From: Triglochin maritima
Lineage: Eukaryota; Streptophyta; Magnoliopsida; Alismatales; Juncaginaceae
Direction of reading: 5' to 3'
Length of the DNA: 64,000 bases
Assembly: GCA_963682175.1 (NCBI GenBank)
Contig: OY821791.1
Coordinates: 23,529,826-23,593,825, forward strand
In this document: one piece after another, positions 12,661 through 64,000 of the stretch
Layout of the letters: the number at the start of each line of letters is the position of its first letter
How positions within the stretch are numbered: the stretch's first letter is position 1
Notes under the pieces: model-generated
The model's database searches: none
What the model saw: the letters and a program-made list of their open reading frames with translations, nothing else
What the model was told of the DNA's origin: nothing
Translations under genes and position numbers: made by a program

Positions 12661-13030
12661 TGATTGACATCATTTCATGCTTATATTTGTATCTTATATC
12701 CATTATCTTTCACCTAAACAATGCTATGTCACGAGTTTTATGTTTAGTTTTCAGGAATAAATAGGTTTGAAGAGATGAAGGATAAAAGGACCCAAAAGCT
12801 GGGAAAAAAGGACTGCATTGTGAGATCTGGGGACCAAGATGCAAGGAAGAAGGACCTGATTGCAAGACAGAAGGACCTAAGAGCAAAACAGAATACTCCT
12901 CACCATCATGGGGAGTATTTTGGCAATTCTATTCGGGTCGGAGCTCCAACATGCAAACTAGATGCATCCAATACCAACAAAGCCTTCCAGAAAAGCCCAC
13001 AAGAAATTCCAGAGCGATCCGGACACTGTA

Positions 13031-13069
13031 GACCGCTAATTAGCGGTCCAAGACCGCTAATTGGCGGTC
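13031..13069. repeat. Paired U3 palindromes of element 1
   Basis: GACCGCTAATTAGCGGTC (13031-13048) is a perfect palindrome. GACCGCTAATTGGCGGTC (13052-13069) is perfect apart from one position. The 3' LTR has the same pair at 19746 and 19767. They lie about 120 bp upstream of the TATA box. The leader carries a matching pair at 14232-14270. Confidence 0.9.
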
Positions 13070-13189
13070 ACGTTTGGCCCAAATGCGCTCAAATTTCTCC
13101 AGCACATGTATTAGAGGATGTTTAGGCTATGTGTGGTATCTGTTTAGTCCCACATCGGGGGATTGTCCCGGATTAGCTTTTTCCATGCC

Positions 13190-13198
13190 TATAAATAG
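13190..13198 (+). promoter_or_regulatory. TATA box of the element 1 LTR
   Basis: TATAAATAG, preceded by TCCATGCC and followed by AACTCTTCACC. The same context recurs at 19905, 41238 and 51005, and on the minus strand at 58852, marking the U3/R region of this LTR family. Element 2's 5' LTR has a decayed form (TATAACTAG) at 34201. Confidence 0.8.
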
Positions 13199-14079
13199 AA
13201 CTCTTCACCTCCTTTTGTAATCACTCCATATTTTAAGTGGCTATTCTTCCTACTAGAAGTGGGGCCTTGAAGCACACACTAAAGTAGGAGGATGCTACTT
13301 TTAATGTGAGTCATTTTATCAATAAAGTTTTGTGTTTCTTTCATTGTTTGTTTATGCTTCTTTTATTGTTTGTGCATGTTTTAGTTTAATCGTCTTTTAT
13401 TTCTAGCTTAGTTTTAATATGCTTTCTTTGCTTAGTTTAATAATTAGTGTAATGTTTAGTGAGTAGTTTCATCCCCTTTGGGGGGTGGTGTAGATGTACA
13501 TACATGCATTAGAGAATGGATGAATGCTTTATTTTTGATGTGTTGATAAAACATGAATGTATGCTTGCTTGTTTAGGATAGAATTTATAACTTGATGAGT
13601 TTTGCCAAAATGATTAGACACCTCTCATGCTTGTTTAGGTTCTGAAATAAACACCTTGCATATGTAAATGTTAATCAACCAAGTTGGTGAATAGATTGAT
13701 AGGTTTTGCCATAACATTTAGACACTTCCTATGCTTGATAAACACCACCTTCATGTGCTTAAAGAATGTATTCTACAACCACCTCTTTGCTTGTGTGCAC
13801 TCACTCCACCCCTTAGGGGTTTTCCCTTCCTGAAATTCCAGCATTCTTGTTTTGTTCTTAGCTTAGTTCTTATTTCATCGTTTGTTTGCTTCTTCACCTT
13901 TCATACTTCTTAGAGTAGTTTAGTGTAGAGTAGTGTAATCAATCTTTCTCCCCCTATTTTTGTCACTTGATTTCTGATAAACAAGAGCCTTCTCACCTCC
14001 CTGAGGACGACCCGTACTTGCCACCGCTTCATCGCGGCCGTGCACTTGCGGTAGAAATATAAAACGTTCAACAAGTTTT

Positions 14080-14096
14080 TGGCGCCGTTGCCGGGG
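14080..14096 (+). promoter_or_regulatory. Primer-binding site for tRNA-Asp, element 1
   Basis: TGGCGCCGTTGCCGGGG is the exact complement of the 3' end of plant tRNA-Asp including CCA, six bases after the LTR end. tRNA-Asp priming is typical of Athila-type elements. It starts minus-strand cDNA synthesis. Confidence 0.93.
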
Positions 14097-15168
14097 AGGT
14101 GCCAGTCCAGACTCTTGTTTGGACGATTCGAGTGGATTTAATTTGTGTTTTGTAGTTGTTCTTTGTTTCAGGAGACTGGGAATAGCAAGGGAAGGCTTCT
14201 GGAAAAATTGCAAGGCTACCTGGGCACTTCAGACCGCCAATCAGCGGTCTGAGACCGCTAATCAGCGGTTGGGTGAGCTCGGTTCACCTTCTAGTTTTTT
14301 GTTGTTGTTAGCCTAATTGATATTGTAATCTGGGACTCCATTTGTGCATGTTCTGACTCTTAGATTGCTCCCAGATTAATAATCAACTTCCCTTGAGCAA
14401 CTTGGACCCTAAAACTCAAAGCAAAAGATTAGGCATTCTTTTTGTTTAGGCCATGCATCATGTATGTGACTTAGGCACTTAGATTGTCTTTTATCTTAGC
14501 TTTATTTTCTGTTGCTGAGAGCTGGCGTGAGGTACGCACCTTCTACTCTCATTCATGCATTTCGTATGAACATGCATTAGTTAGTAGGAAGTGCATTGAA
14601 ACAAGTGTGAGTTGAGCGTTTTGTTTGGAGAGTTGATTGCTAGATTAGGACTCCAAAACGCTACTAAGGAGGGGCTGTCCCATAAAAGATAAGGTGGGGG
14701 ATTTCATCACCCTTTCCTTTGCCCCAAAAACCACACTAATCAAGAGCCTAATTTTAAAATCAAGTAGACATTGGCCCTAAGGATCTTGGACGCATTAGGA
14801 GAGTGATCCGGTCCCGACCGTCATGACCTGATCGACGTTGACCACTTTGTCGATAGTAGGAGAGACGAGATCCCCGGATCTTGGCTCACTTGCTGGGCTT
14901 TGTGGTCCTCGTTGTAGGGAGGTGAGGCGTGTTGAGGCCGTGTGACCTCGCAGTTAGGCGTCGTCTAGCTGTAAGGACCTATAGCGACCTTAGGATTGCT
15001 TGAGCCTTGTTTGCTTGTGTGCTTCTACCTGTACCCATCCGCCGTAGCATAATGACTTCTTCCTTTCTCTCCTGAGTCATTCTTTCTCTCCTGTGTTCCC
15101 CCTGTCTTCTCCCCTACGTACATTCTTTGAAAAAAAGAGAGTTGTGGTTTGTGTGTGCACCTTTGTGC
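14097..15168 (+). other. 5' leader of element 1 (non-coding, structured)
   Basis: About 1.07 kb between primer site and gag. It contains palindromes GACCGCCAATCAGCGGTC (14232-14249) and GACCGCTAATCAGCGGTT (14253-14270). Further on is a possible stem-loop domain: GATCCGG (14805-14811) can pair with CCGGATC (14874-14880), enclosing ATCGAC (14831-14836) pairing with GTCGAT (14849-14854). Elements 2, 3 and 4 have the equivalent block. In retroelements this region usually holds packaging and dimerisation signals; that role is inferred. Confidence 0.75.
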
Positions 15169-18274: not shown

Positions 18275-19207
18275 CCAAATGATTATGAGAATATCTTGGT
18301 TGATGTGTATATCTTGTAAAAAAAACAAAAAAAACAAAAAAAAATAAAAAAAGAAAAAACAAAAAAGTGTAATAAAAGACTCCTTCAGTGAGCATCGATT
18401 GTTGTGGGCCCCAACCCTTGTGTACTTGGGCCCAATCTCTTCACGTATTTATCTCCCTTTTTCAGCTTCTCACAGGTTTTGAAGGAATTTGGGTTTGTGT
18501 AATCATAGGGTTTCAGTACTTAAACATTTAAAGAAGTCCACCCTGAACCTAGTGAGTCAAATAATTCGTGTCTGTTAGTATAAGGAAGTTTGTCGTAGGC
18601 AAGGGCCCTTAATCTCTTTTTGTGAAACTTAAGTGTAGGGGTTTTCGTTCCCATGTAGATAAATAAGTGGTGTTCTCTCTTCTCGCACGGCTCCTATCAC
18701 TCGGGAAAGTAGGTCTGAGGGGACTTTGTGCCTGGTGCTTTCGAGTCATCTGACTTGGGATGCACCGACCGAACTCCCGTTACACGGGTGGTAGGGATCG
18801 CCCTATGTGGAGATTTGGGGGAAGGTGTACGTGATAGTGTAAGTCCTCATAGGCAATGATGCACGAAACCTGACCCTGGGAGAATCAAACACCAACCAAT
18901 AAAATGCTACAATGAAAAAAAAATGAAAAAAAGAAGAAGAAAAAAAAAGAGTCAAATAAGAACCAAAATGGACTTTACACATTGTATCACATTCAGAAGT
19001 TAAGGTTGCCCATGTCTTTCACTCAAGTCCTTAACTAACTTTCACAAATAACTCATTAGGCTAGGTGTATTGACCGATTACATTTATAGAGTCGACCTGT
19101 AGTATTACCGCGTCCCATGATCGACAAAATGAGTCCAACGAGTCGTGTAGCTAGATTGATTAATGCATCTTGTTCGGATTTTGTAGGTATATCCGCTGAA
19201 AACCCTC

Positions 19208-19275
19208 AGGAGACAACACTCCTCCTCCTTGGCGACAAGGAGGTTTAACGGCTTGTTGCACGTGCTAAGTGCAAC
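19208..19275 (+). ncRNA. Three-hairpin RNA cassette, element 1
   Basis: SL1: AGGAG (19208-19212) pairs with CTCCT (19219-19223). SL2 follows with no gap: CCTCCTTG (19224-19231), loop GCGA, CAAGGAGG (19236-19243), a perfect 8-bp stem with a GNRA tetraloop. After 11 nt, SL3: GTTGCAC (19255-19261) pairs with GTGCAAC (19269-19275). Elements 2, 4 and B have the same layout with compensating changes. Probably a structured part of the genomic RNA rather than a separate transcript. Confidence 0.7.
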
Positions 19276-19361
19276 CGTGATTCCTACGAAAGTGAGTTAG
19301 GATTTCTTGTTTTTTCGTATGCTTTTCTCTTTCTTTGTTTTGCTCGGGACTAGCAAAAGTT

Positions 19362-19376
19362 AGGTGTGGGGGTATT
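19362..19376 (+). promoter_or_regulatory. Polypurine tract of element 1
   Basis: AGGTGTGGGGGTAT directly before the 3' LTR start. The same tract precedes the 3' LTR of elements 2, 4 and B. Confidence 0.88.
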
Positions 19377-20789
19377 TGATTGACATCATTTCATGCTTAT
19401 ATTTGTATCTTATATCCATTATCTTTCACCTAAACAATGCTATGTCACGAGTTTTATGTTTAGTTTTCAGGAATAAATAGGTTTGAAGAGATGAAGGATA
19501 AAAGGACCCAAAAGCTGGGAAAAAGGACTGCATTGTGAGATCTGGGGACCAAGATGCAAGGAAGAAGGACCTGATTGCAAGACAGAAGGACCTAAGAGCA
19601 AAACAGAATACTCCTCACCATCATGGGGAGTATTTTGGCAATTCTATTCGGGTCGGAGCTCCAACATGCAAACTAGATGCATCCAATACCAACAAAGCCT
19701 TCCAGAAAAGCCCACAAGAAATTCCAGAGCGATCCGGACACTGTAGACCGCTAATTAGCGGTCCAAGACCGCTAATTGGCGGTCACGTTTGGCCCAAATA
19801 CGCTCAAATTTCTCCAGCACATGTATTAGAGGATGTTTAGGCTATGTGTGGTATCTGTTTAGTCCCACATCGGGGGATTGTCCCGGATTAGCTTTTTCCA
19901 TGCCTATAAATAGAACTCTTCACCTCCTTTTGTAATCACTCCATATTTTAAGTGGCTATTCTTCCTACTAGAAGTGAGGCCTTGAAGCACACACTAAAGT
20001 AGGAGGATGCTACTTTTAATGTGAGTCATTTTATCAATAAAGTTTTGTGTTTCTTTCATTGTTTATTTATGCTTCTTTTATTGTTTGTGCATGTTTTAGT
20101 TTAATCGTCTTTTATTTCTAGCTTAGTTTTAATATGCTTTCTTTGCTTAGTTTAATAATTAGTGTAATGTTTAGTGAGTAGTTTCATCCCCTTTGGGGGG
20201 TGGAGTAGATGTACATACATGCATTAGAGAATGGATGAATGCTTTATTTTTGATGTGTTGATAAAACATGAATGTATGCTTGCTTGTTTAGGATAGAATT
20301 TATAACTTGATGAGTTTTGCCAAAATGATTAGACACCTCTCATGCTTGTTTAGGTTCTGAAATAAACACCTTGCATATGTAAATGTTAATCAACCAAGTT
20401 GGTGAATAGATTGATAGGTTTTACCATAACATTTAGACACTTCCTATGCTTGATAAACACCACCTTCATGTGCTTAAAGAATGTATTCTACAACCACCTC
20501 TTTGCTTGTGTGCACTCACTCCACCCCTTAGGGGTTTTCCCTTCCTGAAATTCCAGCATTCTTGTTTTGTTCTTAGCTTAGTTCTTATTTCATCGTTTGT
20601 TTGCTTCTTTCACCTTTCATACTTCTTAGAGTAGTTTAGTGTAGAGTAGTGTAATCAATCTTTCTCCCCCTATTTTTGCCACTTGATTTCTTATAAACAA
20701 GAGCCTGCTCACCTCCCTGAGGACGACCCGTACTTGCCACCGCTTCATCGCGGCCGTGCACTTGCGGTAGAAATATAAAACGTTCAACA
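19377..20789 (+). mobile_element. 3' LTR of element 1
   Basis: 1413 bp, TGATTGACATC...CGTTCAACA, nearly identical to 12661-14073. U3 palindromes at 19746 and 19767, TATA box at 19905. A minus-strand open frame from the copia integrase reads through the insertion border into this LTR, so the apparent C-terminus of that frame is not copia sequence. Confidence 0.95.
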
Positions 20790-24945: not shown

Positions 24946-26145
24946 TTTATGAGAATTTAATTTATACCGCAAGTGCACGGCATCAATGAAGACGTGGCAA
25001 GTACAGGTCGAACACAAGGAGGGAGAGATATTGTTATTTTTGTGATTTTCGAGTTGAGGAAAGAAAGAGAGAAAAATAAGTTTGGTTTGAGATTTTTGGT
25101 TTTTAATTTTCTAAAGCACGAAACATGAACAAATAAAACTAAAACGAGAACAAAGATGGTGAATTCCGTTGGGTGGAGGTTTAAATATCAGGTTTTGATT
25201 GGAGAAATCTGAAACTTATAATAAATCACATTAGTTAAAAAGCATTACATGATAAATGATTCAACATAAACTCAAGTAATCAAAATATACTAATACAAAA
25301 TTAAAATAATAACATCATTCTCTTCTCATCACCCTAAATCCGTCACCCCCACACTTTGGAAAGAGTTAGAAACTCATAGATGGAGGGAAGCAGAAGGGGT
25401 CCTAGAGAAAACTACAAAAGAAACTAAAAACAAGAAATAAAAGAACATAATTTTATTACTAAAGTTTGGTACAAAAACTAAGGACCTTCACAACATCGTT
25501 TCGGGGCTATTTATAGCCGCTAAAAGGGAGCAAAGTATAAAATAGGAAATTACACGTGTCATGACACGACTGGACAAAATCCGGGGCCACGGATCCAAAG
25601 GGGGCGGCGGAATCGCCGCATTTTACATGTGTTGTGCGGCGGAAACACTGCAATATTTGCTCCGATTGGATCCGGATTTTTCCTGTGTGTTTATGGTATG
25701 ATTTAATTGTCCTTTACGCATCCAGATGATTTCTTTCCTTTCTTTTAGCTCCGAATTTATTTCTTCATATATTTGGAGATCCAAATTGATTTTTCTTTAG
25801 AACTTCTCCAAAATAATATTTTGGAACTTTAATTTGCAGTTGGGTCCTCGGCTTTTTGCAATTACGTCCCTGGCTTCTTTTGTGCTTAAGTCCTTTGCCT
25901 TTTTGTAATTAGGTCCTTGAATGCTTTTATGCTTGGATGAACTTCCATTTGAATCCCGATAATCTTGAACTTGATCTTTATGACAGAAATGAGTCTCTTG
26001 CACGCATTTAAGCTCAGGATATGGGTAATTTGCATTCAGGTCCCTGTATTATGTAAATAAGACTTAAACACATACCTTAGTAGCATTTATTGATATAAAA
26101 TTAATATAAATGAGAGACATATGATGTAATGTATGCAATGCATCA
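24946..26145 (-). mobile_element. 3' LTR of element B
   Basis: About 1200 bp, plus-strand borders TTTATGAGAATTT and ...AATGCATCA. Minus-strand TATAAATAG at 25507-25515. A GC-rich palindrome GCGGCG-GAAT-CGCCGC at 25604-25619, and a degenerate second copy near 25636. It is longer than the 5' LTR because the latter lost an internal segment. Confidence 0.9.
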
Positions 26146-26160
26146 AATACCCCCACACCT
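26146..26160 (-). promoter_or_regulatory. Polypurine tract of element B
   Basis: Minus strand AGGTGTGGGGGTATT directly before the LTR start TGATGC; same core as element 1. Confidence 0.87.
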
Positions 26161-26242
26161 AGATTTTTCTAGTCCCTAGCAAAATAGAATATAAGACAAA
26201 ATGAAAACAGAAAAATCCTAACTCACTTTCGTAGGAATCACG

Positions 26243-26310
26243 GTTGCACTTAGCATGTGCAACAAGCCTTTAAACCCCTAAGTTTCCTTAGAGGACGAGT
26301 TTTGTCTCGT
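26243..26310 (-). ncRNA. Three-hairpin RNA cassette, element B
   Basis: On the minus strand: SL1 ACGAG/CTCGT (26310-26295), then without a gap SL2 CCTCTAAG-GAAA-CTTAGGGG (26294-26275), 11 nt, then SL3 GTTGCAC/GTGCAAC (26263-26243). Against element 1, SL1 has one G-C to C-G swap. SL2 has three pair-preserving changes (C-G to U-A and two U-A to A-U), one U-A to G-U wobble, and loop GCGA to GAAA, still GNRA. Spacing is identical. Confidence 0.72.
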
Positions 26311-27367
26311 GAGGGTTTTCAGTTGACACACCCACAAAGTCTTAATTCAATATTTCACTAATAGCTCTCGATATCTCCACCTCAACCCTATACATTTCAC
26401 TTAGAATTCTTGCATGCTCATTATATAACTTTAACTCATAAAAAATTCTGACTTGGTCTTTGTTTCTCCAACATTCACACCACTAACCCTTCTACACATG
26501 ATATCACTTAAATTATTTTGCACGCCTCCTCTGGTGGTGAAGTATCATTCGGATCAACCATGGCATGGATCATTCTTTTTGCTTTGGGCCTTGAGTATCT
26601 TAAAGTATTTTTTTTATTTTTCCGTGATTCAACACATTTACTTTTTCTGACACTTTTACCCTTTTTGCATTCGTGTAGCGAGTTCGGTCGATAATCCCGA
26701 GCTGGCAGACTCAAGTTACCGGGTTTCAAGATACCCCTACGGACTAGTGACTCAAAGGCTTGAGCTTTTGTAATCATTTTGCAAAATGTGCTTTCCTCAC
26801 TTTATTCCTTTATTTTTACTTTTATTTTCCTCAAGGCTTAATTGCTATCAGAAGTCCACACTTCCCGGTATATTTTCCTCAACCTCTGCTTTTTATCAAC
26901 CACTTCAAAGATTTGATTCATCCAATTTAAGTGCATACATGTCTTAAAGTGTAATGGGTTATTTTTTTGGAACTTAGATTTATGTCATAACTTCTACAAG
27001 CAGAATTATATAATAAGGAACAAAAACTCAATCAATTTGTACTCGGGTTTTGGTAGTTCAATCTTAAGCTATGTCATGAAACATTGAATTTTTTTTAAAG
27101 AACAGAAAAATAAAACAGATAGATAGATAAATACCCCTCACACCTAAAGCATGCATTGTCCTCAATGTATGCAAAGAAAAAGCAAATGCACTTATTACCT
27201 GAGTCAACTTGCGGTAGAGAGGTTGATTTTGCTCAGAGTCAACCATAGTTAGAACTGGATTGAATGACACCATGTTGGTGCATGTATCCAGTTGAATTGT
27301 TCCCCATGTTGCACTGAGAGTACTGAGGCACAGATTCCACCCCCCTCACATGTATTGGTTCTCTTAT
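26311..27367 (-). other. Non-coding 3' region of element B
   Basis: Between the protease frame and the hairpin cassette. No coding domain seen. The large conserved 3' block of elements 1, 2 and 4 was not recognised here. Frames on either strand are short and carry no motif. Confidence 0.6.
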
Positions 27368-39310: not shown

Positions 39311-40714
39311 AATAAAAGACTCCATGAGCGAGCATTGATTGTTGTGGGCCCCAACCCTTGTGTACTTCGGCCCCATTTCTTCACGTATTTGTCTCTCTTC
39401 TTCAGTATGTTCATGCATTGCTCACATTCATTGAGGACAATGCATGAAGTAGGTGTGTGTGGGGGTATTAGTGTGCCGCATTTAACATTGATATATCTGC
39501 TTTTGATTTTGTTTTCTTTTGTGTGCATTGTTAGGGTCATGTTAGTGTGCCGCATTTAACATTGATATATCTGCTTGCCATGATCCTTGGGTGACTTGTC
39601 TTCTTTTGGTTATCTAGTGCTTTAAAATTTTCACATTTCTTTCAAAATCTTCATGTGTTTACGAAAGAAAATGTTTTGTGGGTTTGGCGTGTGTTTAGCA
39701 TGTACAAAACCGTTGAGAGGCAAAGTAAAAAGAAAGGTCCCAAAATTGTCTTGAATTTAATGCATTAGGATATCTAGTTTACTGGGTTTAGGTCTTATCG
39801 AGTCGTTAGGATGCACCCCGATTTTCCCTCGGGGGGCGTGTAATCATAGGGTTTCAGCACTCAAACATTTAAAGAAGTCCACCCTGAACCTAGTGAGTCA
39901 AATAATTTGTTTGTTAGTATAACAAAGTTTGTCGTAGTCAAGGGCCCTTAATCTCTTTTTGTGAAACTTAAGTGTAGGGGTTTTGGTTCCCATGTAGATA
40001 AATAAATAAGTGGTGTTCTCTCTTCTCGCACGACTCCTATCACTCGGGAAAGTAGGCCTGAGGGGACTTTGTGCCTGGTGCTTTTGACTCAGCTGACTTG
40101 GGATGCACCGACCGAACTCCCGTTACACGGGTGGTAGGGATCGCCCTATGTGGAGATTTGGGGGAAGGTGTACGTGATAGTGTAAGTCCTCATAGGCAAT
40201 GATGCACGAAACCCGACCCTAGGATAATCAAACACCAACCAATAAAATGCTCCAAAGAAGAAGAAAAACGAAAAAAAAGAAAAAAGAGAGTCAAATAAGA
40301 ACCTTAATGGACTTTACACATTGTATCACATTCAGAAGTTAAGGTTGCCCATGTCTTTCACTTAAGTCCTTAACTAACTTTCACGAATAATTCATCAGGC
40401 TAGATGTGTGGCCGATTAGATATATAGAGTCGACCCGTAGTATTACCGCATCCCATGATCGGCAAAATAAGTCCAATGAGTCTTGTAGCTAGATTGATTA
40501 ATGCATCTTTGTTCGGATTTTGTGGGTGTATCCGCTGAAAACCCTCAGGATACAACACTCCTCCTCCTTGGCGACAAGGAGGTTTAACGGCTTGTTGCAC
40601 GTACTAAGTGGAATAGTGATTCCTACGAAAGTGAGTTACGATTTCTCGTTTTTCGTATGCTTTTCTCTTTCTTTGTTTTGCTCGGGACTAGCAAAAGTTA
40701 GGTGTGGGGGTATT
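39226..40714 (+). other. Non-coding 3' region of element 2
   Basis: Begins with an (AT)n(GT)n run at about 39269-39310 where element 1 has an A-rich repeat. It has about 390 bp more than element 1 (roughly 39400-39840, including a duplicated GTGCCGCATTTAACATTG stretch). The conserved block is at 40040-40220 and the hairpin cassette at 40547-40614. The polypurine tract AGGTGTGGGGGTAT ends at 40713. Confidence 0.78.
40547..40614 (+). ncRNA. Three-hairpin RNA cassette, element 2 (partly decayed)
   Basis: SL1 AGGAT/CTCCT (40547-40562) has lost one pair. SL2 CCTCCTTG-GCGA-CAAGGAGG (40563-40582) is perfect. After 11 nt SL3 GTTGCAC/GTGGAAT (40594-40614) has two mismatches. Decay fits the older age of element 2. 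Confidence 0.65.
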
Positions 40715-42095
40715 TGATTGACATCATTTCATGCTTATATTTGTATCTTATATCCATTATCTTTCACCTTAACAATGCTACGTGACAAGTTTTATGTTTG
40801 AATTTCAGAAATAAATAGTTTTGAAGAGATGAAGTATAAAAGGACCCAAAAGCAGGGAAAATGGACTGAATTGTGAGACCTAGGGACTAAGATGCAAGGG
40901 AGAAGGACCTGAACGTAAGACCGAAGGACAAAAGAGCAAAATAGAAAACTCCACACCATCTTGGGGAGTATTTTGGCAATTAGATTTGGGTCGGAGCTCC
41001 AACAAGCGAAGTAGATGCATCCAAGACCAACAAATATATCAAGGAAAGCCCAAAACAAAACTTAGCCAGATCCGGATCCTATAGACCGCCAATTGGCGGT
41101 CTGGAACCGCCACTCCAGAAATCTTCACGGATCCGGGAAGATTTCTGGAGCATATGTATTAGTGTTTGTTTAGGCTATTTTTGGTATTTGTTTAGTCCAA
41201 CATCGGGGGATTGTCCCGGATTGCCTTTTTCTTTGGCTATAAATAGAACTCTTCACCTTATATTGTAATCACTTCACATTTTAAGTGGCTATTCTTCCTT
41301 CTAGAAGTGAGGCCTTGAAGCACACACTAAAGTAGGAGGATGCTACTTGAATTGTGAGTCATTTTAATAAAAGTTTCTTTATTATGTTGTTTGTTTTACT
41401 TTGTTTAATTTCATTTCATTAGTTTTAGTAGCTTAGTTAATATGCTTTCCTTGCTTAGTTTAATAATTAGTCTAATGTATAGTTAGTAGTTCCTTCCCCT
41501 TTGGGGGGTGGAGTTGATGTTCATACATGCATTAGAGAATGGAATGAATGCTTTATTTACAATGTGTTGATAAAACATGAATGTATGTTTGTTTGTTTAG
41601 AATAGAATTTATAACTTGATGAGTTTTGCCAAAATGATTAGACACCTCTCATGCTTGTTTAGGTTCTGAAATAAACAACTTGTATATGTAAATGTTAATC
41701 AACTAGGTTGGTGAATGGATTGATAGGTTTTGCCATAACATTTAGACACTTCCTATGCATGATAACACCACTTTCATTTGTGCTTAAAGAATGTGTTCAA
41801 CACCCACCTCTTTGCATGTGTGCCCTCACTCCACCCCTTAGGGGTTTTCTATTTCTGAATTCCAACACTTATTTAGTTCCTAGTTTAGTTTGGTAGTTCA
41901 TCGTTTGTTACTTTCTTTCGCATTTCGTACTTCGTAGTGTAGTGTAGCATAGAGTAGGATAATCAAACTCTCTTCCCTACTTTTGTCACTTGATTTTGTG
42001 CAAACGAGAGGTTGCTCACCTCCCTGAGGACGACCCGTATTTGCCACCGCTTCAACGCGGTCGTGCACTTGTGGTTTAATATAAAACGTTCAACA
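40715..42095 (+). mobile_element. 3' LTR of element 2
   Basis: TGATTGACATC...CGTTCAACA, 1381 bp, followed by AGGTG (42096-42100). A perfect U3 palindrome GACCGCCAATTGGCGGTC at 41084-41101 and TATAAATAG at 41238-41246. This intact copy shows the pre-insertion sequence at the copia target. Confidence 0.94.
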
Positions 42096-46441: not shown

Positions 46442-48635
46442 TGTAACGCCCTTGAAAATCGGGAACTTTAAAATGATAATTCAAGAAACTTAAACCCATA
46501 AAAAATGGGGAAATTACACATAATACTCAAAAAATGGTGCATCATTACAAGAGGGTTGAAAGTTTGATTACAACAAAGACAAGAAAGTACATAATACAGA
46601 TAACAACAACCTAGGAGATAAGACTGGAGGATCTTGTCCAAGATCTACTCGTCCTCGGTCATGACCCACTCAGCACCTAACGAGGCCCTGGAATTGAACA
46701 TGATAAAATGCCTGAGTTTTCATAATGAAAACTCTATATACCAAGTCCATCTAAACTATGAATGTACAGTACAATGAACCTAGCATACTAGTAACTCATG
46801 GCATGATGGTACAACAAGGAAACCTTCCCGAACAGGGGCAAAATGGACAACAGTCCCACTAACAACATTGGGTCACTCGAGGGCACCCACCGTAGGCAAT
46901 GCTGTTTTACGGAGAGCACGCGACACACCCACACTCGCTACTACATTAATCATGAGGGGTTCGGTGAGGGTCTCACGCACTTCCAAGAAATAGATACAAA
47001 TCTGATCCTTGTGGTCCTTAGGGCACACCACCCGCCAGAGTCGTCGCTGTGGTCGACCATACCTGCCGAGCCGTGGCACAGCCTGGATGACCATCTCTGC
47101 CAACACAAGGGCCAGACGGTCATCTCGCTCCGTAGAGCTACGTAACAACAATGCATTGGGATCCACGATCCCTTAGATCTACTTCAAAGGGTGACTGAAA
47201 TGAGACGCGATATGCCATACTAAAGCTTATCCACACAACATGGCACGTGTACCAAGCATCCACTCTCTTTCGTTCGGCAATCCCTGGGCAGGCACAATCA
47301 GTGCCCCTACCGTCACCTCTCGGCTCATGCACGAAGCAAGAACATGTATTTCTGAGGAAATAGTTCGACACTTGGTTACACATTCTCGCTCTGCGGTCCC
47401 ATGGAAGGCGCGATCATCACACCTATCGTCACCTCCCGGCTCACGCATGAAGCGAGGACACGGGCTTTCGAGAAACATTTCTACACAAAGCTTTCGCTTC
47501 AACGATGTCGTTTTGCCTCCGTGCTCGCATTTCAACCGCTCACATGCGCTTGTACCTCACCTCCATGCCCTCGTGCTCACGTCTTGCCCATTACCATGCT
47601 CTTACACCTTACCTCTATGCCCTCGTGCTTGCGTCTCGCTCACGCCCACGTGCCTCACCTCCGTGCTCCATCTCGCCCGCGCCCACACACTCGCGCCTTG
47701 CCTCCGTGTTCGCATCTCACCCACGCCCACATACTCGCACCTCGCCTCCATGCTCACATCTTGCCCACACCCACACGCTCGTGCTTCACGTCCTTACGCT
47801 ACAACATCCATGTCCGCGTACCCGTTCACCATCCTAGCCACGCCAGGCAATGACTTTGCTCGCTTGGGCAACGACTTGGCTCGCCTGGGCAACGCCTTGG
47901 TGTGCCTAGGCAACACCTTGCATGCTTGGGCATTGCCTATCTCTGCTGGGAAATGTCCGGTCGGCATTAGTCGGCGCCCCATCCTCCGACCGACCCTCGT
48001 CGCCAACGAGGCCTCCAGCCATCCGACAACGAGCCAACACCTTTACACGCCTTGTGTGAGCAACATAAATAAACTTGGCATACCTTTTTCGATTTTGCAG
48101 GAGTTCACCGACGACCACCTCTCTTGCACCCTAGCACCTCAGCCACGAAGCCACGTGACCACTTCATTGTTCAATGCACCACGTCAGCTTCACCTCTTCA
48201 ACCAACGACCCCGCTAGCCACACTCCTCAGCGACCTCCTTGCTTGCTGTCTACCACCGCTGGTCAGAGATCCATCAGCCACTGCTCATCGGCAGCCTTGG
48301 AGAGGGAAGAGGAGGGGGTACATGGGAGAGGAGGTGGTGGAATTGGGAGAGAAATGAGGGAGAGATGTGTGAGTGTGTGTGTTTCTTCTTCAAAATCACC
48401 CACCAACCAAGCAAACATGGTTGGCCATACCTCACCCCATATCTTTCGTACTTCCAACCATTCTCACCATACCTCCACCCACTCCTACACCATGCCTTCC
48501 AAGTCAAAGCACCCTTAGGCCTAAACCTCACCACCAAAGCAAGTTTAAGCTAATCTAAACCAAAACCAAATGTCCACCCTTCTTAATTTCTTCTCACCCA
48601 CGATTAACCTCTAAGTTTTTGGTTAAGACTTAACA
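46442..48635 (-). mobile_element. 3' LTR of a minus-strand chromovirus
   Basis: Plus-strand borders TGTAACGCCC at 46442 and ...GACTTAACA at 48635, i.e. TGTTAAGTC...GGGCGTTACA on the minus strand. 2194 bp. A purine-rich tract (AAGGAGGGTGGAT on the minus strand) sits between it and pol. The middle is very C-rich on the plus strand and carries two minisatellites. A 325-codon plus-strand frame at 47240-48217 lies wholly in this LTR and reflects the repeat composition. Confidence 0.85.
47520..47940. repeat. Two minisatellites in the chromovirus LTR
   Basis: About 47560-47795 has a ~44-bp imperfect repeat: starts near 47652, 47695, 47739 and 47783 share GCCTYRCCTCCRTG and CGCCCACAC motifs, and CACGCCCAC phrases continue to the left. 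About 47866-47936 has four 21-bp units of the type GCTTGGGCAACGACTTGGCTC. Confidence 0.7.
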
Positions 48636-57833: not shown

Positions 57834-59386
57834 TGATTGAACGTTTTAATTATAACCACAAGTGCATGGCCACATTGAAGCGGTGACAAATATGGGTCGA
57901 TCCACAAGGAGGTGTGTCGACTTTGGTTAGTTCGAAGGCCAGTGGGAAAGAAAGGACTTATGATCTAAACTACACTACAATGCGAAAGGAATGAGAAATA
58001 CACAATAAAACTAAACCCCATAGGGGGTAGAGAAAGATTGTGAATACAAAGATATGTGTGTGTGTTCAATTATGCTCATCACAACATGTAGTGCATGAAA
58101 ATCATAAAACTAAATCCAACTTTGCCCCACATGAAATAAGATAACACAATATCATTAAAACATACAAGACAATAATTGGAATGAAGCTAAATGAACTCAT
58201 GTATAAAGACCAAACCCCACTATGCCTCCACATGAAATAAGATAACACAATATCATTAAAACATACAAGACATTAATCAAGGTAAGGGTAAGAAAACCAC
58301 AAGCAACTACAAGCCATGTTTCCTTTATCAACTCCATCCTTATCCTCACATCATCATTCCCCATAAAATAGGTCCACTAGTCTAAGCATATGCTAAGCTT
58401 CATTCAAGAGCATTAGCATATCAAAGACAAGAGTGAAATCTCATTAGATGGTTATGAAAATCATATAAGGCTGAAAGGATTAAGATAACACACACACCTG
58501 ATACATTACATAATCACATCACATTATTTTCCACCCCCCAAATGGGGATGGAACTACTAACTAATCATTATACTACAACCTACATTAACAAAATGAAACA
58601 TTCTACTGAAAAGAAATTAAACCAAGTAAGCAAGAAATATAAAAGAAGCTAATTCAAAGGAAGTCAAACTAAAGAAGCATGTAAGAATTAAAAGACAAGA
58701 CAATATTAAAAGAAACTAAGAAAAATTATTTTATTAACATGACTCACATTGCAAGTGGCATTCTTCTCCACCTTGAGTTTTCGCTTCAAGGCTTTTACAC
58801 CAAGTAGAGAGAATGCCACCAAGCAATGGGTGATACAAATGAGGAGGAGTTCTATTTATAGACATAGAAAAAGGTAATCCGGGACAATCCCCCGTTACGG
58901 GACTAAATGTATACCAAAAATAGACTAAACACAACCTAATACATGACCCAACAAAGTTTTATCGGATCCGGACCAAAACAGACAGCCAATCAGTGGTCTT
59001 GGACTGCCAATTGGCGGTCTATATTGTCTGTATCCAGCCTAGTTTTGGTGTGTACTTGTCTGGCTTCATATCTTCTTGTTTGATGCATTCGAGTAGGTTG
59101 TTGGAGCTCAGGACCGAATCGAATTGCCAAAATACTCCGCATGATGGTGTGGAGTTTCTTGATTTTCTCCTTGGTCCTTTGGGCTTACATCCGGGTCCTT
59201 CAATCTTGCATCTCAGTCCCCGAGTCTTGCAACTCAGTCATTTTCCTTGCTTCTAGGTCCTTTTATGCCCTTCTCCTCAATCCTGTTTATTCCTAAAACT
59301 CAAACATAAAACTCGTTACGTAGCATTGTTTAGGTGAAAAATAATGGATATAAGACACAAATATATGCATGATATGATGTCAATCA
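57834..59386 (-). mobile_element. 3' LTR of element 4
   Basis: Plus-strand borders TGATTGAACGTTTTAATT and ...GATGTCAATCA (minus: TGATTGACATCATATCATGC...). 1553 bp. Minus-strand TATAAATAG at 58852-58860. U3 palindromes at 58981-58998 and 59002-59019. Confidence 0.87.
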
Positions 59387-59401
59387 AATACCCCCACACT
59401 T
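59387..59401 (-). promoter_or_regulatory. Polypurine tract of element 4
   Basis: Minus strand AGTGTGGGGGTATT directly before TGATTGACATC. Confidence 0.85.
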
Positions 59402-61104
59402 AACTTTTGCTAGTCCTGAGCAAAACAAAGAAAGAGAAAAAATTAAAGAAAGGAAAAAGCATACGAAAAACAGGGAAATCCTAACTCACTTTTGTTGGAA
59501 TCACGGTTACACTTAGCATGTGCAACAAGCCGTTAAACCTCCTTGTCTCCAAGGAAGAGGAGTGTTGTCTCCTGAGGGTTTTCGGCGGATATACCCACAA
59601 AATCCGAACAAAAATGCATTATTCAATCTAGAAACTCGACTCGATAGACTCATTTTTATCAATCATTGGACGCGGTAATCCTACGGGCCGACTCTATATA
59701 GGTATTAGTCCACACACCTAGCCTGATGAACCATTCGTGCATGTTAAATAAGGACTTAAGTGAAAGACATTGACAACCTCAACATCCTCAAGTGATACAA
59801 AGTGTGAAGTCCATTAAGGTTCTTATTTGCATTACCATTTTGTTTTCTTTCTTGTTTGTTTTCTTACTCTCTTTTTTGTTCTTTTTTTATACTAGTTGGA
59901 GTTTCGTTCTCCCAAGGTCAGGTTTCATGAGTCATTGCCTATGAGGACTTCCACTATCACTTACACATTTCTCCAAGTCTCCACATAGGGCAATCCCTAC
60001 CACCTGTGTAACAAGAGTTCGGTTGGTGCATCCCAAGTCAGATGACTCAAAAGCACCAGGCACAAAGTCTCCTCAGACCTAATTTCCCGAGTGATAGGAG
60101 CCACGTGAGAAGAGAGAACACATACTCACTTATTTCTTATCTACACATCAACCAAAACCCCTACACTTAATGTCTCACAACAAGATTTAAAGGGTCCTTG
60201 ACTAGAACAAACTTCCTTATATTAACAAACACAAATTATTGACTTACTAGGTTCAGGGTGGACTTCTTGAATTATTTGAGTATTGAAACCCTCTGATTAC
60301 TTTCCCTGAGGGAAAACCGGGGTGCATCCTAACGACTCGATATGACCTAAAGCAGGTATACAAGATATCCTAATGCATCAAGTTCAAGAAAAATTTGGGT
60401 GCTTTCTTTTTACTTTGCCTCTCAACGGTTTTGCACATGCTAAACACACGTGAAACCAACAAAACATTTTCTTTCGCAAACACATGAAGATTTTGAAAGA
60501 AATGGGAAAATTTTAAAGCACTGGGCAAGCAAAAGAAGACAAGTCACCCAAGGATCATGGCAAGCACATATATCGATATTAAATGTTGCACACTAACATG
60601 ACCCTAACAATGCACACAAAAGAAAACAAAATCAAAGGAAAAGACTCGACTATGTACACACGTAAAACACCCCCCACACCTACTTCATGCATTGTCCTCA
60701 ATGAATGTGAGCATATATACTACATGGATTTATGCATGAAAAATAAGAGATCTCACCAACGTGAAGTACAAAGGGAAGTTCATGGCTATGTTGATGGACA
60801 CAACCCAAATTCCCTCAAAACTTGTCAGATGCTAAAGAAGGGATACAAATACGTGAAAAAATGTGGCCCAAATACATAAGGGTTGGGGCCACAACAATCG
60901 ATGCTCGCTCATGGAGTCTTTTATTGTACTTTTTTTTAATATAACTATGTACAAAAATAAGTTCCCATCTTCATTTGTCAAAGGACATCAAATGGGAACC
61001 TCAAAAGTGGGTCAATGCACTTGGAAAGGGAACATGACACCACACGGGGCCAGAATACTCATGTTTGGGCCCCCTCAAAAAGAGCACAAGATGGAAGAAG
61101 AGGT
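59402..61104 (-). other. Non-coding 3' region of element 4
   Basis: Homologous to the 3' regions of elements 1 and 2. The conserved block at about 59930-60110 has stem CTTGT/ACAGG where element 1 has CCCGT/ACGGG, one pair changed C-G to U-A and another to a wobble. Upstream parts (60240-60560) match element 2's 39600-39910. No coding. Confidence 0.75.
59506..59573 (-). ncRNA. Three-hairpin RNA cassette, element 4
   Basis: Minus strand: SL1 AGGAG/CTCCT (59573-59558), adjacent SL2 CTTCCTTG-GAGA-CAAGGAGG (59557-59538) with one G-U pair and a GNRA loop, 11 nt, SL3 GTTGCAC/GTGTAAC (59526-59506) with one G-U pair. Confidence 0.7.
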
Positions 61105-61774
61105 TCATGAACGACGCAAATGTGTCTCATTCAAAGGATCAAACTGCAAGAGCTTGAACCTCTCAAGAGTTTGGGAAATATGGGGCAACGGAAGAAGAGT
61201 TTCTCCCGTTGCGGTGCTGAAGTTATGATCGTCAATCCAAACTCTCCAACTAACAGGCTGGCGGGTCGGAACGAGGTCAAGAACCTTGTTAGGCATGTCT
61301 GACTCACCAGGCGAACAAAAAGTGGGTCTCTTACCCAAGGTATCCTCCAAGGAACTCCTAATACCCTCATTAGCAATATAGGTTTTTGATGTTCCGTCAT
61401 TCCAAGATGATCAGGAACAATAGTGAGAGGCAAACTCTCATCAGGTCGTTTGAAATTAAGGGTACTAGGGAGCTCTTGCTCCACCAAATGTGAGTCCTTA
61501 AGAGGCACAACATGAAGATCATATGGCTCAAGGGCTACAAGACAAAAAGATACGGCACAATCCTGTGCCGACTCATAATGAAGTTGGTCCATGTTATTCT
61601 CAATTTGGATCGAATCCCCCTCCATGTGATCGTGAATTGAAACCCCAAGTCCCTCATACTGAGTAGGAGTTTGACTTTGAATGATTGTGCTTTGAATTTG
61701 TAGATGTGGAGGTGGTTTGATATCAGAAGATAAATCCTCATTTTGACAAGAAAGGTTACCCTCCTCATGTTCAC
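61105..61774 (-). pseudogene. X region of element 4, frameshifted
   Basis: Minus-strand frames 61625-61131 and 61350-61105 line up with the X region of elements 1 and 2. LVALEPYDLHV matches MAIEPFELHI. VSWRVWIDDHNF matches IGWRVFFDEQLN, followed by an ERFKLLQFDPL stretch where the others have GFEPFSFDL. The two frames differ by a shift. No protease motif lies between this and the Gag part, so the protease was lost while X remained. Confidence 0.65.
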
Positions 61775-61786
61775 GGAATTATTGTG

Positions 61787-62448
61787 TCATTTGATCACTT
61801 GCATTTCCATAGTTTGCAAGGAATTCAAGTTGGACTTGAATAAAGTTCGAGTGGTTTCCATGAACGTTTGGAGGGTTTGTTTTAAGGAATCAAGTTTGGG
61901 GTCAACAGTGAGGTTCATGTTAGAATTTGGGAAATGGATGGGTTGGGTGTTTATGGGGTGAGAATGAGTCCAACAATTGGTCGTGGGTGGTGACTGGTAG
62001 AATTCTGGGTATTCGGGAGGAGGATATTGGGGTGGGCATGATGTATAAAAATTTAAATAAGAATGGTCTCCCCATGAATCCATCCCTCTCGGGTTTTACG
62101 CGGATGCGTAATGGTTATATTGAGCATTTTGGGAAAAGGTATGCTCATACGCAGGCTCTGGGGAACATAAGGGCATTCCCCGATAACAAGACCAATCAAC
62201 CCACAACAGTCACACGGTACGGCTACTGGAGCCACCGGTGCACTCATGTTGTCTACCGCACGCATGAAAGAGGCCAAAGTTTGTTGTAATGTCTCAGTTT
62301 GTTGACCAACATATGATCCGACATAACTAGATGGTGGTTTAGCAGTCGGTGCCTCTCTCATATTATCCCAATCTGAAGATTGCTCAGCCACACAATTAAG
62401 ATTGTCCCAACCGTACGGGGTGTTAGTCGGAGCCACCCCAGGTTGCAT
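61787..62448 (-). pseudogene. gag: Gag C-terminal half of element 4
   Basis: The frame 62448-62053 has a linker, TETLQQTLASFMRAVDNM and a knuckle CDCCGLIG.VIGEC with His replaced by Leu. The frame 62083-61787 has the Pro-rich stretch and LDSLKQTLQTFMETT, NSLQTMEMQVIK, matching the leucine-rich Gag tail of element 1. The particle-forming Gag core is absent. Confidence 0.75.
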
Positions 62449-63611
62449 TGGTCTGGAATACCAGGGATAATTGTCCTAGTCCCAACAATGATATGGATGG
62501 TATCCCATGTAACCATCCATCTCAACAAAAAACTCTCGAGTCGACCACTCTCACCACCACGAGACTAAGCTCGCAAAAAAAGTGCTCGATTCGACCCTAA
62601 AACCTAATAGAGAGTGTAAAGGGGAGGAGACTAGAACGTAGAAGTAGGTGATAAGAAGATGACTCAGAGGAGAAGGGAAGAATCCTTAGAAACTAGCGTG
62701 GGTAGTGGGAGAGGGTAGAAGTTTAATCTAGCACCTCCTACTATGGGTCCTTAGGCTAGATGACGCCTAACTTCGAGGTCACTAGTCTCGACACACCTCG
62801 CCTCACCTCCCTACAACGAAGACCACAATGCCCAGTAAGTGATACCAAATCCGGAGATCCAGTACCTCCTACTATCGACAAGGCAGGCGATGTCGATCAG
62901 GTCATGACGGTCTCAACTAGATCACTCTCCTAGTGCGTCCGAATTCCTTAGGGATAATGTCTACTTGCTTTTATATTAAGGCTTTACTTGAGTGTGCTTT
63001 TTGAGGCTAAGGGAGGGGTGATTAAATCTCCCACCTTATCTTTGAAGATTATAGGTAATGCCCTTTAAAGATGTTTTGAAATCTTAGGCTACCAAGCAAC
63101 TCACCAAACAAGCACTCACCTCACTCTTGTCCCGATGCAATTCCTTCTAACTAATGCATGGTTATACAAAATGCATGAATGAGAGTAGGAAATGCGTACC
63201 TCATGCCAGCACTCATCAACTGAAAGTAAACTAAAATAAAAGACAACTACATGCCTAAGTCAAGTATGTGATGCATGACCTAAACAAGTAAGAATGCCTA
63301 ATCTTTTGCTTTGGATTTAGTGGCCAAGTTGATTAAAGGGGATTGATATTTAATCTGGAAGCAAACTAAAAGTCACAACATTCAAGATTGCACTCCCAGA
63401 CAACTACACTAAAACACACAACAACCAGAACAAAAATGGGAGAACGTGAAGCTCACCAGGCCGCCAATTGGCGGTCATTGTTGCTTTTTTCGCTCGCCAA
63501 TTCTTCCAGTTGCCTCCCCTTGATCCTGAGGATCCCTGAAACAAACCAAAACTAAAAAAGAAAAATTAAAACCACTCGAATCGTCCAAACCAAAGTCTAG
63601 ACAAAACACCT
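62449..63611 (-). other. 5' leader of element 4
   Basis: Minus strand GATCTAGT (62923-62916) can pair with ACTGGATC (62863-62856), enclosing ATCGAC/GTCGAT, the counterpart of the leader stem in element 1. One palindrome GGCCGCCAATTGGCGGTC at 63459-63476. No Gag start region was recognised between here and the Gag remnant. Confidence 0.7.
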
Positions 63612-63628
63612 CCCCGGCAACGGTGCCA
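63612..63628 (-). promoter_or_regulatory. Primer-binding site for tRNA-Asp, element 4
   Basis: Minus strand TGGCACCGTTGCCGGGG, one mismatch to tRNA-Asp, six bases from the LTR end at 63635. Confidence 0.88.
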
Positions 63629-63634
63629 AAAACT

Positions 63635-64000
63635 TGTTTAATCGTTTAAACTACCGTAAGTGCACAACGTCGGTGAAGACGTGGCAAACACGGGTCGATC
63701 CACGGGGAGGAGAGCAATCTCTGGTTTGCATGAAGTCAAGTGGCAACAAAAAGGGGGAAGAGTTTTGTTTATGCTAATCTACGCTACACTAAACTACTAA
63801 GAAGAAAATGCAAAGGAAAGCTACTAATGATTACTTCAAACAAAACTAAAAGAACTGAATACCAAGCTGGAATCAGGAAGAGAGAGACCCCTAAGGGGTG
63901 GAGTGTGTGCACACATGTAAAAATATGGTGAAGATTGCAATCTATAGACACAAATGTAGGTAATGTTTTCATGTATAGAAAGTGTCTAAAGGTTATGGCA
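63635..64000 (-). mobile_element. 5' LTR of element 4, partial
   Basis: Plus strand starts TGTTTAATCGTTTAAACTACCG. The sequence CCGTAAGTGCACAACG...GGTGAAGA...CGGGTCGAT...CTCTGGTTTG resembles the end of element 3's LTR much more than the element 4 LTR at 57834. The window ends inside it. Confidence 0.85.

Follow-up and report, generated by a model that had tools for sequence, protein, structure and literature searches.

Three-hairpin cassette upstream of the polypurine tract

A cassette of three hairpins, SL1 (5 bp), SL2 (8 bp) and SL3 (7 bp), was identified by direct reading in four Athila-type elements of Triglochin maritima, with identical spacing in all four copies and at a position 52-75 nt upstream of the polypurine tract (PPT). 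Comparison of the copies provides good support for selection on the RNA structure of SL2, and the paired changes in this hairpin, its constrained tetraloop and the fixed spacing are best explained as reflecting such selection while the elements transposed. The DNA analysed, referred to here as the window, is a stretch of 64,000 nt (GCA_963682175.1, OY821791.1, positions 23,529,826-23,593,825 of the forward strand), with the four elements being designated E1, E2, E4 and B.

In E1 the cassette was examined as a block of 111 nt (19196..19306, + strand) by direct reading, alignment and a covariance model. Reading and folding place SL1 at 19208..19223 (AGGAG, loop ACAACA, CTCCT) and SL2 at 19224..19243, an 8-bp stem closed by the GNRA loop GCGA, which was also followed with genome-wide patterns. 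A linker (19244..19254) precedes SL3 (19255..19275; GTTGCAC, 7-nt loop, GTGCAAC), and a conserved tail of 30 nt (19276..19305) follows, all on the + strand. The corresponding blocks are located at 40535..40645 (+) in E2, 59475..59585 (-) in E4 and 26212..26322 (-) in B. In each of the four SL1 directly adjoins SL2, the linker between SL2 and SL3 is exactly 11 nt and the SL2 loop is of the GNRA type (GCGA in E1 and E2, GAGA in E4 and GAAA in B). These features and the positions of the four copies had been proposed in an initial annotation of the sequence and were borne out by direct reading.

The four copies align without gaps over the 111 nt. A covariance model built from them, as proposed with the initial annotation, recovered the same four copies in the window at 133-145 bits (145.2 bits for the E1 block, with a model built partly from E1), the next-best match scoring 13.7 bits (E 0.76). 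The part alignable between the two LTR families involved, about 19177-19380, is larger than the three hairpins and takes in the PPT, with few differences between the families in the tail. Between E1 and B, blastn (E ≤1e-10, at least 120 nt) aligned no internal region other than this block with its PPT and a stretch of protease.

The PPT and the bases preceding the 3’ LTR are found at 19363..19376 (+) in E1, and the PPT with the start of the LTR at 40701..40717 (+) in E2, 59384..59400 (-) in E4 and 26143..26159 (-) in B. The tract is the same in all four elements except for one base in E4. Among the copies read, the distance from block to PPT varies (about 45-75 nt), while distances within the cassette are constant. 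A possible extra hairpin lies directly 5’ of the PPT of E1 (19338..19358, +; TTTTGCT, 7-nt loop, AGCAAAA), with one mismatched pair in B. Many of the listed genomic matches to the tail and PPT described below, though uncounted, have a similar sequence before the PPT that could form a stem of 9 bp closed by a GGA loop.

Elements carrying the cassette

Element E1 possesses LTRs of about 1.4 kb, the 5’ LTR at 12661..14073 (+) with a flanking duplication ACCTT and the 3’ LTR at 19377..20789 (+) with 99.3% identity to it. The sequence after the 5’ LTR contains a primer binding site (14080..14097, +) which we take to be of the tRNA-Asp type. Pfam searches of 17 reading frames of the window identified Retrotrans_gag in E1 and B, and RVT_1 with RNase H in a further element, E3; the protease of E1 is presumed from its motif. 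The gag and pol domains found mark an LTR retroelement, not the Athila clade alone. Among 120 listed gag relatives of 132, those with organism names were all from flowering plants. The window elements most likely belong to the Athila/Calypso/Diaspora lineage.

Additional searches with tblastn (E ≤1e-8) used pieces of the E3 reverse transcriptase (RT), E3 RNase H, E1 gag and E1 protease as queries. By Pfam and tblastn no RT was detected in E1, E2, E4 or B, a point absent from the initial annotation, with E3 alone in the window giving one, and neither gag, protease nor RT was detected in E4. The internal region of E4 (59387-63645, -) has some open frames without gag, protease or RT matches. Element E3 starts at about 50482 and is apparently truncated by E4 before its 3’ end. 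Element B was found to be inserted in an LTR of another element, with frames for a copia-type gag and integrase in the intervening stretch, and that LTR lies inside the 5’ LTR of E2. These nested insertions occupy 8448-35061, where the 5’ LTR of E2 is split by the B-containing LTR element and where E1 also lies. A 325-aa open frame at 47240-48217 (+) overlaps tandem repeats and had no Pfam match.

Elsewhere in the genome, one copy of the cassette (locus L051) was found to have gag, protease and RT upstream on the same strand (tblastn), its RT being 82% identical to the E3 piece. Pfam identified RNase H and integrase there, again on the strand of the cassette, where the integrase frame stops about 1.8 kb short of the cassette and another frame about 1.4 kb short of it. 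If these domains belong to the same element as the copy, as seems probable, the cassette occurs in elements with pol as well as in those that lack it.

Covariation among the window copies

Between E1 and B, 19 of 126 aligned positions differ. Within the stems 9 of 40 positions are changed, and these amount to four double compensatory changes (one in SL1, three in SL2) and one wobble (U-A to U-G), with no pair broken. The change of AGGAG/CTCCT to ACGAG/CTCGT and the three double substitutions in SL2, as described in the initial annotation, were thereby confirmed. As corrections to that annotation, two pairs are broken in E2 (the last pair of SL1, U.C, and pair 4 of SL3, G.G), and E4 has two one-sided changes that retain pairing.

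Simulations were performed in which the number of E1-B substitutions was kept and their placement was random, for the stems named in the initial annotation after both sequences had been seen, the counts being uncorrected for that choice. At least four double compensations arose in 3 of 400,000 simulations over all columns and in 5 of 400,000 when placement was restricted to stem columns; none combined this with zero broken pairs. In the four-copy alignment, including a trial SL4, 96% of cells were paired, and 3 of 500 shuffles matched that value or the covariation score. When partners were slid, 36-48% of cells paired; this control is biased towards the structure, which was itself drawn from the same sequences. 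Folds of single copies were modestly better (z -2.05 to -2.54) than those of dinucleotide-shuffled sequences, 3-8 of 200 of which were equally good.

The hairpins differ in what these comparisons suggest for each. Whereas the three compensations point to structural selection on SL2, the single covarying pair of SL1 gives weaker support. In SL3 of the copies read no double compensatory change was seen, with only one-sided changes and breaks being found, and the selection on RNA structure proposed for the whole cassette thus stands for SL2, is weaker for SL1 and is not demonstrated by these copies for SL3. Folding also predicted a fourth hairpin in the tail (SL4) and a closing helix of the tail with 19198-19204; covariation supports neither, and SL4 is broken in two of the four window copies. 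Sequence conservation is seen in both SL3 and the tail, but it tells little about pairing.

A reading in which the block forms the last part of a reading frame, its conservation being coding, is scarcely credible. By eye, E1 and B share a similar frame that leads into SL1 from just upstream, but in B it is interrupted by two stops, one just upstream and one within SL2, which refute the coding reading if B is typical. Because of these stops, the single-base indels found upstream among E1, E2 and E4, and the paired double changes that coding would leave unexplained, a coding origin of the block was disfavoured.

Copies across the host genome

The genome searched was that of the host alone (1.06 Gb). 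Searched as DNA, the E1 block had 278 candidates and the B block 1,591, with 40 matches of each being scored. Thirty E1-like loci, including E1 of the window, all have a PPT downstream; 22 of them match a short pattern for it, and in the other eight the PPT and the start of the LTR are mismatched at one of 17 positions. In the adjacent 200 kb, the covariance model identified four further copies, each with a PPT (one with an altered base). After exclusion of a locus repeating the window, the copy set comprised 37 copies, representing 28 distinct sequences, most of them close to E1. Sixteen of these 28 are fully paired over the 20 pairs and twelve have one or two broken pairs, with a GNRA loop, in five forms, being present in all 28. 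In one copy (L053) SL3 shows two one-sided changes, both of which retain pairing. Another (L041, 6005-6115, -) combines E1-type stems with an LTR start and PPT flank of the B type, so that the stems either changed within one LTR family or were moved by recombination. The proposal that the cassette predates the split of the LTR families is plausible, but in view of this copy exchange by recombination is possible too.

In the whole genome a pattern for SL2 matched 15,311 places when its loop was GNRA and 83 when it was GNYA (GNRA 99.5%), while reversed-pattern controls had no matches. Per-copy counts were made on the first 100 of the 15,311 GNRA places, ordered along one contig; the pattern itself fixes pairs 1, 2, 4 and 8 plus one side of pair 3. 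Among these 100 listed matches SL2 is fully paired in 61 and has one mismatch in 39, with none having more. Abundant mismatches include C.A at pair 5, in 22 copies, and U.U at pair 6, in 10 copies of which 9 are of a single type; SL2 pairing is thus not strictly kept, and mismatches occur in abundant subfamilies. The association between the two strands of the stem was reached in 0 of 20,000 shuffles for the 100 copies and in 19 of 20,000 for the 14 distinct stems, values that relatedness of the copies inflates.

A separate search demanding G or C at pair 6 of SL2 yielded 65 copies, every one with a GNRA loop. The pair is broken in 42 of these, G.U in 18 and G-C in 5, and another pair is broken in 3 of the 18 G.U copies and in none of the 5 G-C copies. 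To judge from these selected sequences, G-C at pair 6 is an additional compensated state, and the copies broken there look like products of decay after insertion.

The tail followed by the PPT core within 48-78 nt gave 12,988 matches in the genome (control, 0). The exact tail and PPT were found downstream of 71 of the 100 listed SL2 copies, at an offset of 66 in all 71, and of 93 tail-PPT matches in the same stretch 71 have the SL2 pattern upstream. As the patterns are exact, decay may explain the 29 SL2 and 22 tail-PPT matches without a partner.

Self-templated copying yields concerted double changes without selection. An origin of this kind, in which imperfect palindromes were perfected during reverse transcription and the remaining similarity is due to shared ancestry, is very unlikely to account for the cassette. 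It would fit with the inflation of the association by relatedness and with the persistence of mismatched subfamilies, but it leaves unexplained the GNRA loop in its five forms and in 99.5% of pattern matches, the fixed spacing, and the occurrence of G.U beside G-C at pair 6. The ratio of GNRA to GNYA loops, the strand association and G-C at pair 6 add to the support for selection on the RNA structure of SL2.

Comparison to known elements

No match was found to Rfam 15 in the window at the gathering score, nor up to E 5 in 19100-19420. Among viral contigs two patterns had no matches, and a protein pattern identified five stretches, none a relative; a protein search of genome contigs gave 37 stretches, again with no relative among them. 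Five viral loci with one pattern were rejected, as they share a single flanking sequence that is without the flanks of the element. Among the papers listed in searches of the open literature for Athila hairpins and RNA structure, conserved motifs near the PPT and GNRA loops in retrotransposons, none describes the cassette in its title or the abstract shown, and strings of its sequence returned two papers that by title concern other subjects.

Little mapping has been done of the RNA signals that act in cis in plant LTR retrotransposons. The UTRs of Ty3, of the same superfamily as the cassette elements, have roles in primer annealing, localisation and packaging, and the passages concerned mention no GNRA hairpin cassette (PMC4974528, PMC11381356). 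Similarly, the description of Diaspora, in the part available, mentions a PPT without using the word ‘stem’ (PMC1142308).

Possible roles of the cassette

In these Athila-type Ty3 elements, the cassette may be a structure that acts in cis within the genomic RNA and marks it for packaging or trafficking, a role to which we assign somewhat less than an even chance. It would fold in the sense RNA, within the 3’ non-coding region just before the PPT, where the SL2 loop would dock with a protein or RNA receptor, and docking would mark the full-length RNA of the element for packaging or trafficking into particles. A recognition role is favoured because of the position of the cassette, its retention without pol and its RNA nature. 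This would also explain why elements without pol keep the cassette, since they depend on proteins made elsewhere. More specifically, the GNRA loop could dock into a receptor in Gag RNA-protein complexes, a host protein or the genomic RNA, and in elements without pol serve as a tag for selection by the proteins of autonomous relatives; in this detailed form the proposal is rather doubtful. If true, a plant Ty3 retrotransposon would thereby carry a tag for trans-mobilisation of a type that we have not seen described. Being compact and present in thousands of natural variants, the cassette makes selection of RNAs for export or packaging, including those of elements without pol, directly testable.

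Long-range pairing with the 5’ leader, of the kind involved in Ty1-type cyclisation of the ends, was scored against 30 shuffled leaders and was inconsistent between elements (-80.1 against a best of -79.2 for E1; -75.6 against -75.7 for E2), being no better than with shuffled leaders for E4 and B. Ty1 has its packaging sequences in the first 580 nt from the 5’ end (PMC4974528), and this was counted against the packaging reading of a cassette at the 3’ end.

Transport elements of retroviruses and retrotransposons occupy a 3’ position. By analogy, the cassette might be a nuclear export element that recruits an export factor, like the CTE of Mason-Pfizer monkey virus (MPMV) or the transport elements of IAP and MusD; we regard this as unlikely. 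The cassette is likened to these elements by its 3’ non-coding position and by the same kind of need. The MPMV CTE, IAP RTE, MusD MTE and the MER11 CTE of SERV-K likewise act in cis on full-length RNA, in the sections of the sources seen (PMC12786077, PMC11379458). The same review, in those sections, notes that direct study of RNA export for plant LTR retrotransposons is absent, a point in favour of this reading, but also states that plants export RNA mainly through TREX and not through TAP/NXF1 (PMC12786077), so that the host machinery differs.

GNRA loops are typically features of RNA-RNA or RNA-protein contacts. This weighs against a role in plus-strand priming, in which the structure would position reverse transcriptase/RNase H at the PPT or keep the PPT accessible, as does the variable distance from block to PPT beside constant distances within the cassette. 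The association with the PPT is regular and a possible extra hairpin directly precedes it, both of which are in keeping with priming; on balance, we consider this role quite unlikely, and recognition of the RNA for packaging or trafficking remains our preferred, tentative reading. A precedent for a conserved structure tied to the PPT of a plant LTR retrotransposon is known from Sireviruses, which are described, in the portion of the source seen, as carrying an inverted repeat that borders the PPT (PMC2829016). In Sireviruses a single inverted repeat holds the PPT in its loop, whereas in the elements described here the PPT is downstream of and outside several hairpins; furthermore, Sireviruses are Ty1/copia and the cassette elements are Ty3. 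In single folds of E1 and E2, the PPT is also surrounded by a possible inverted repeat extending into the 3’ LTR (19360-19440 and 40690-40780), and this PPT-spanning repeat recalls that of the Sireviruses.
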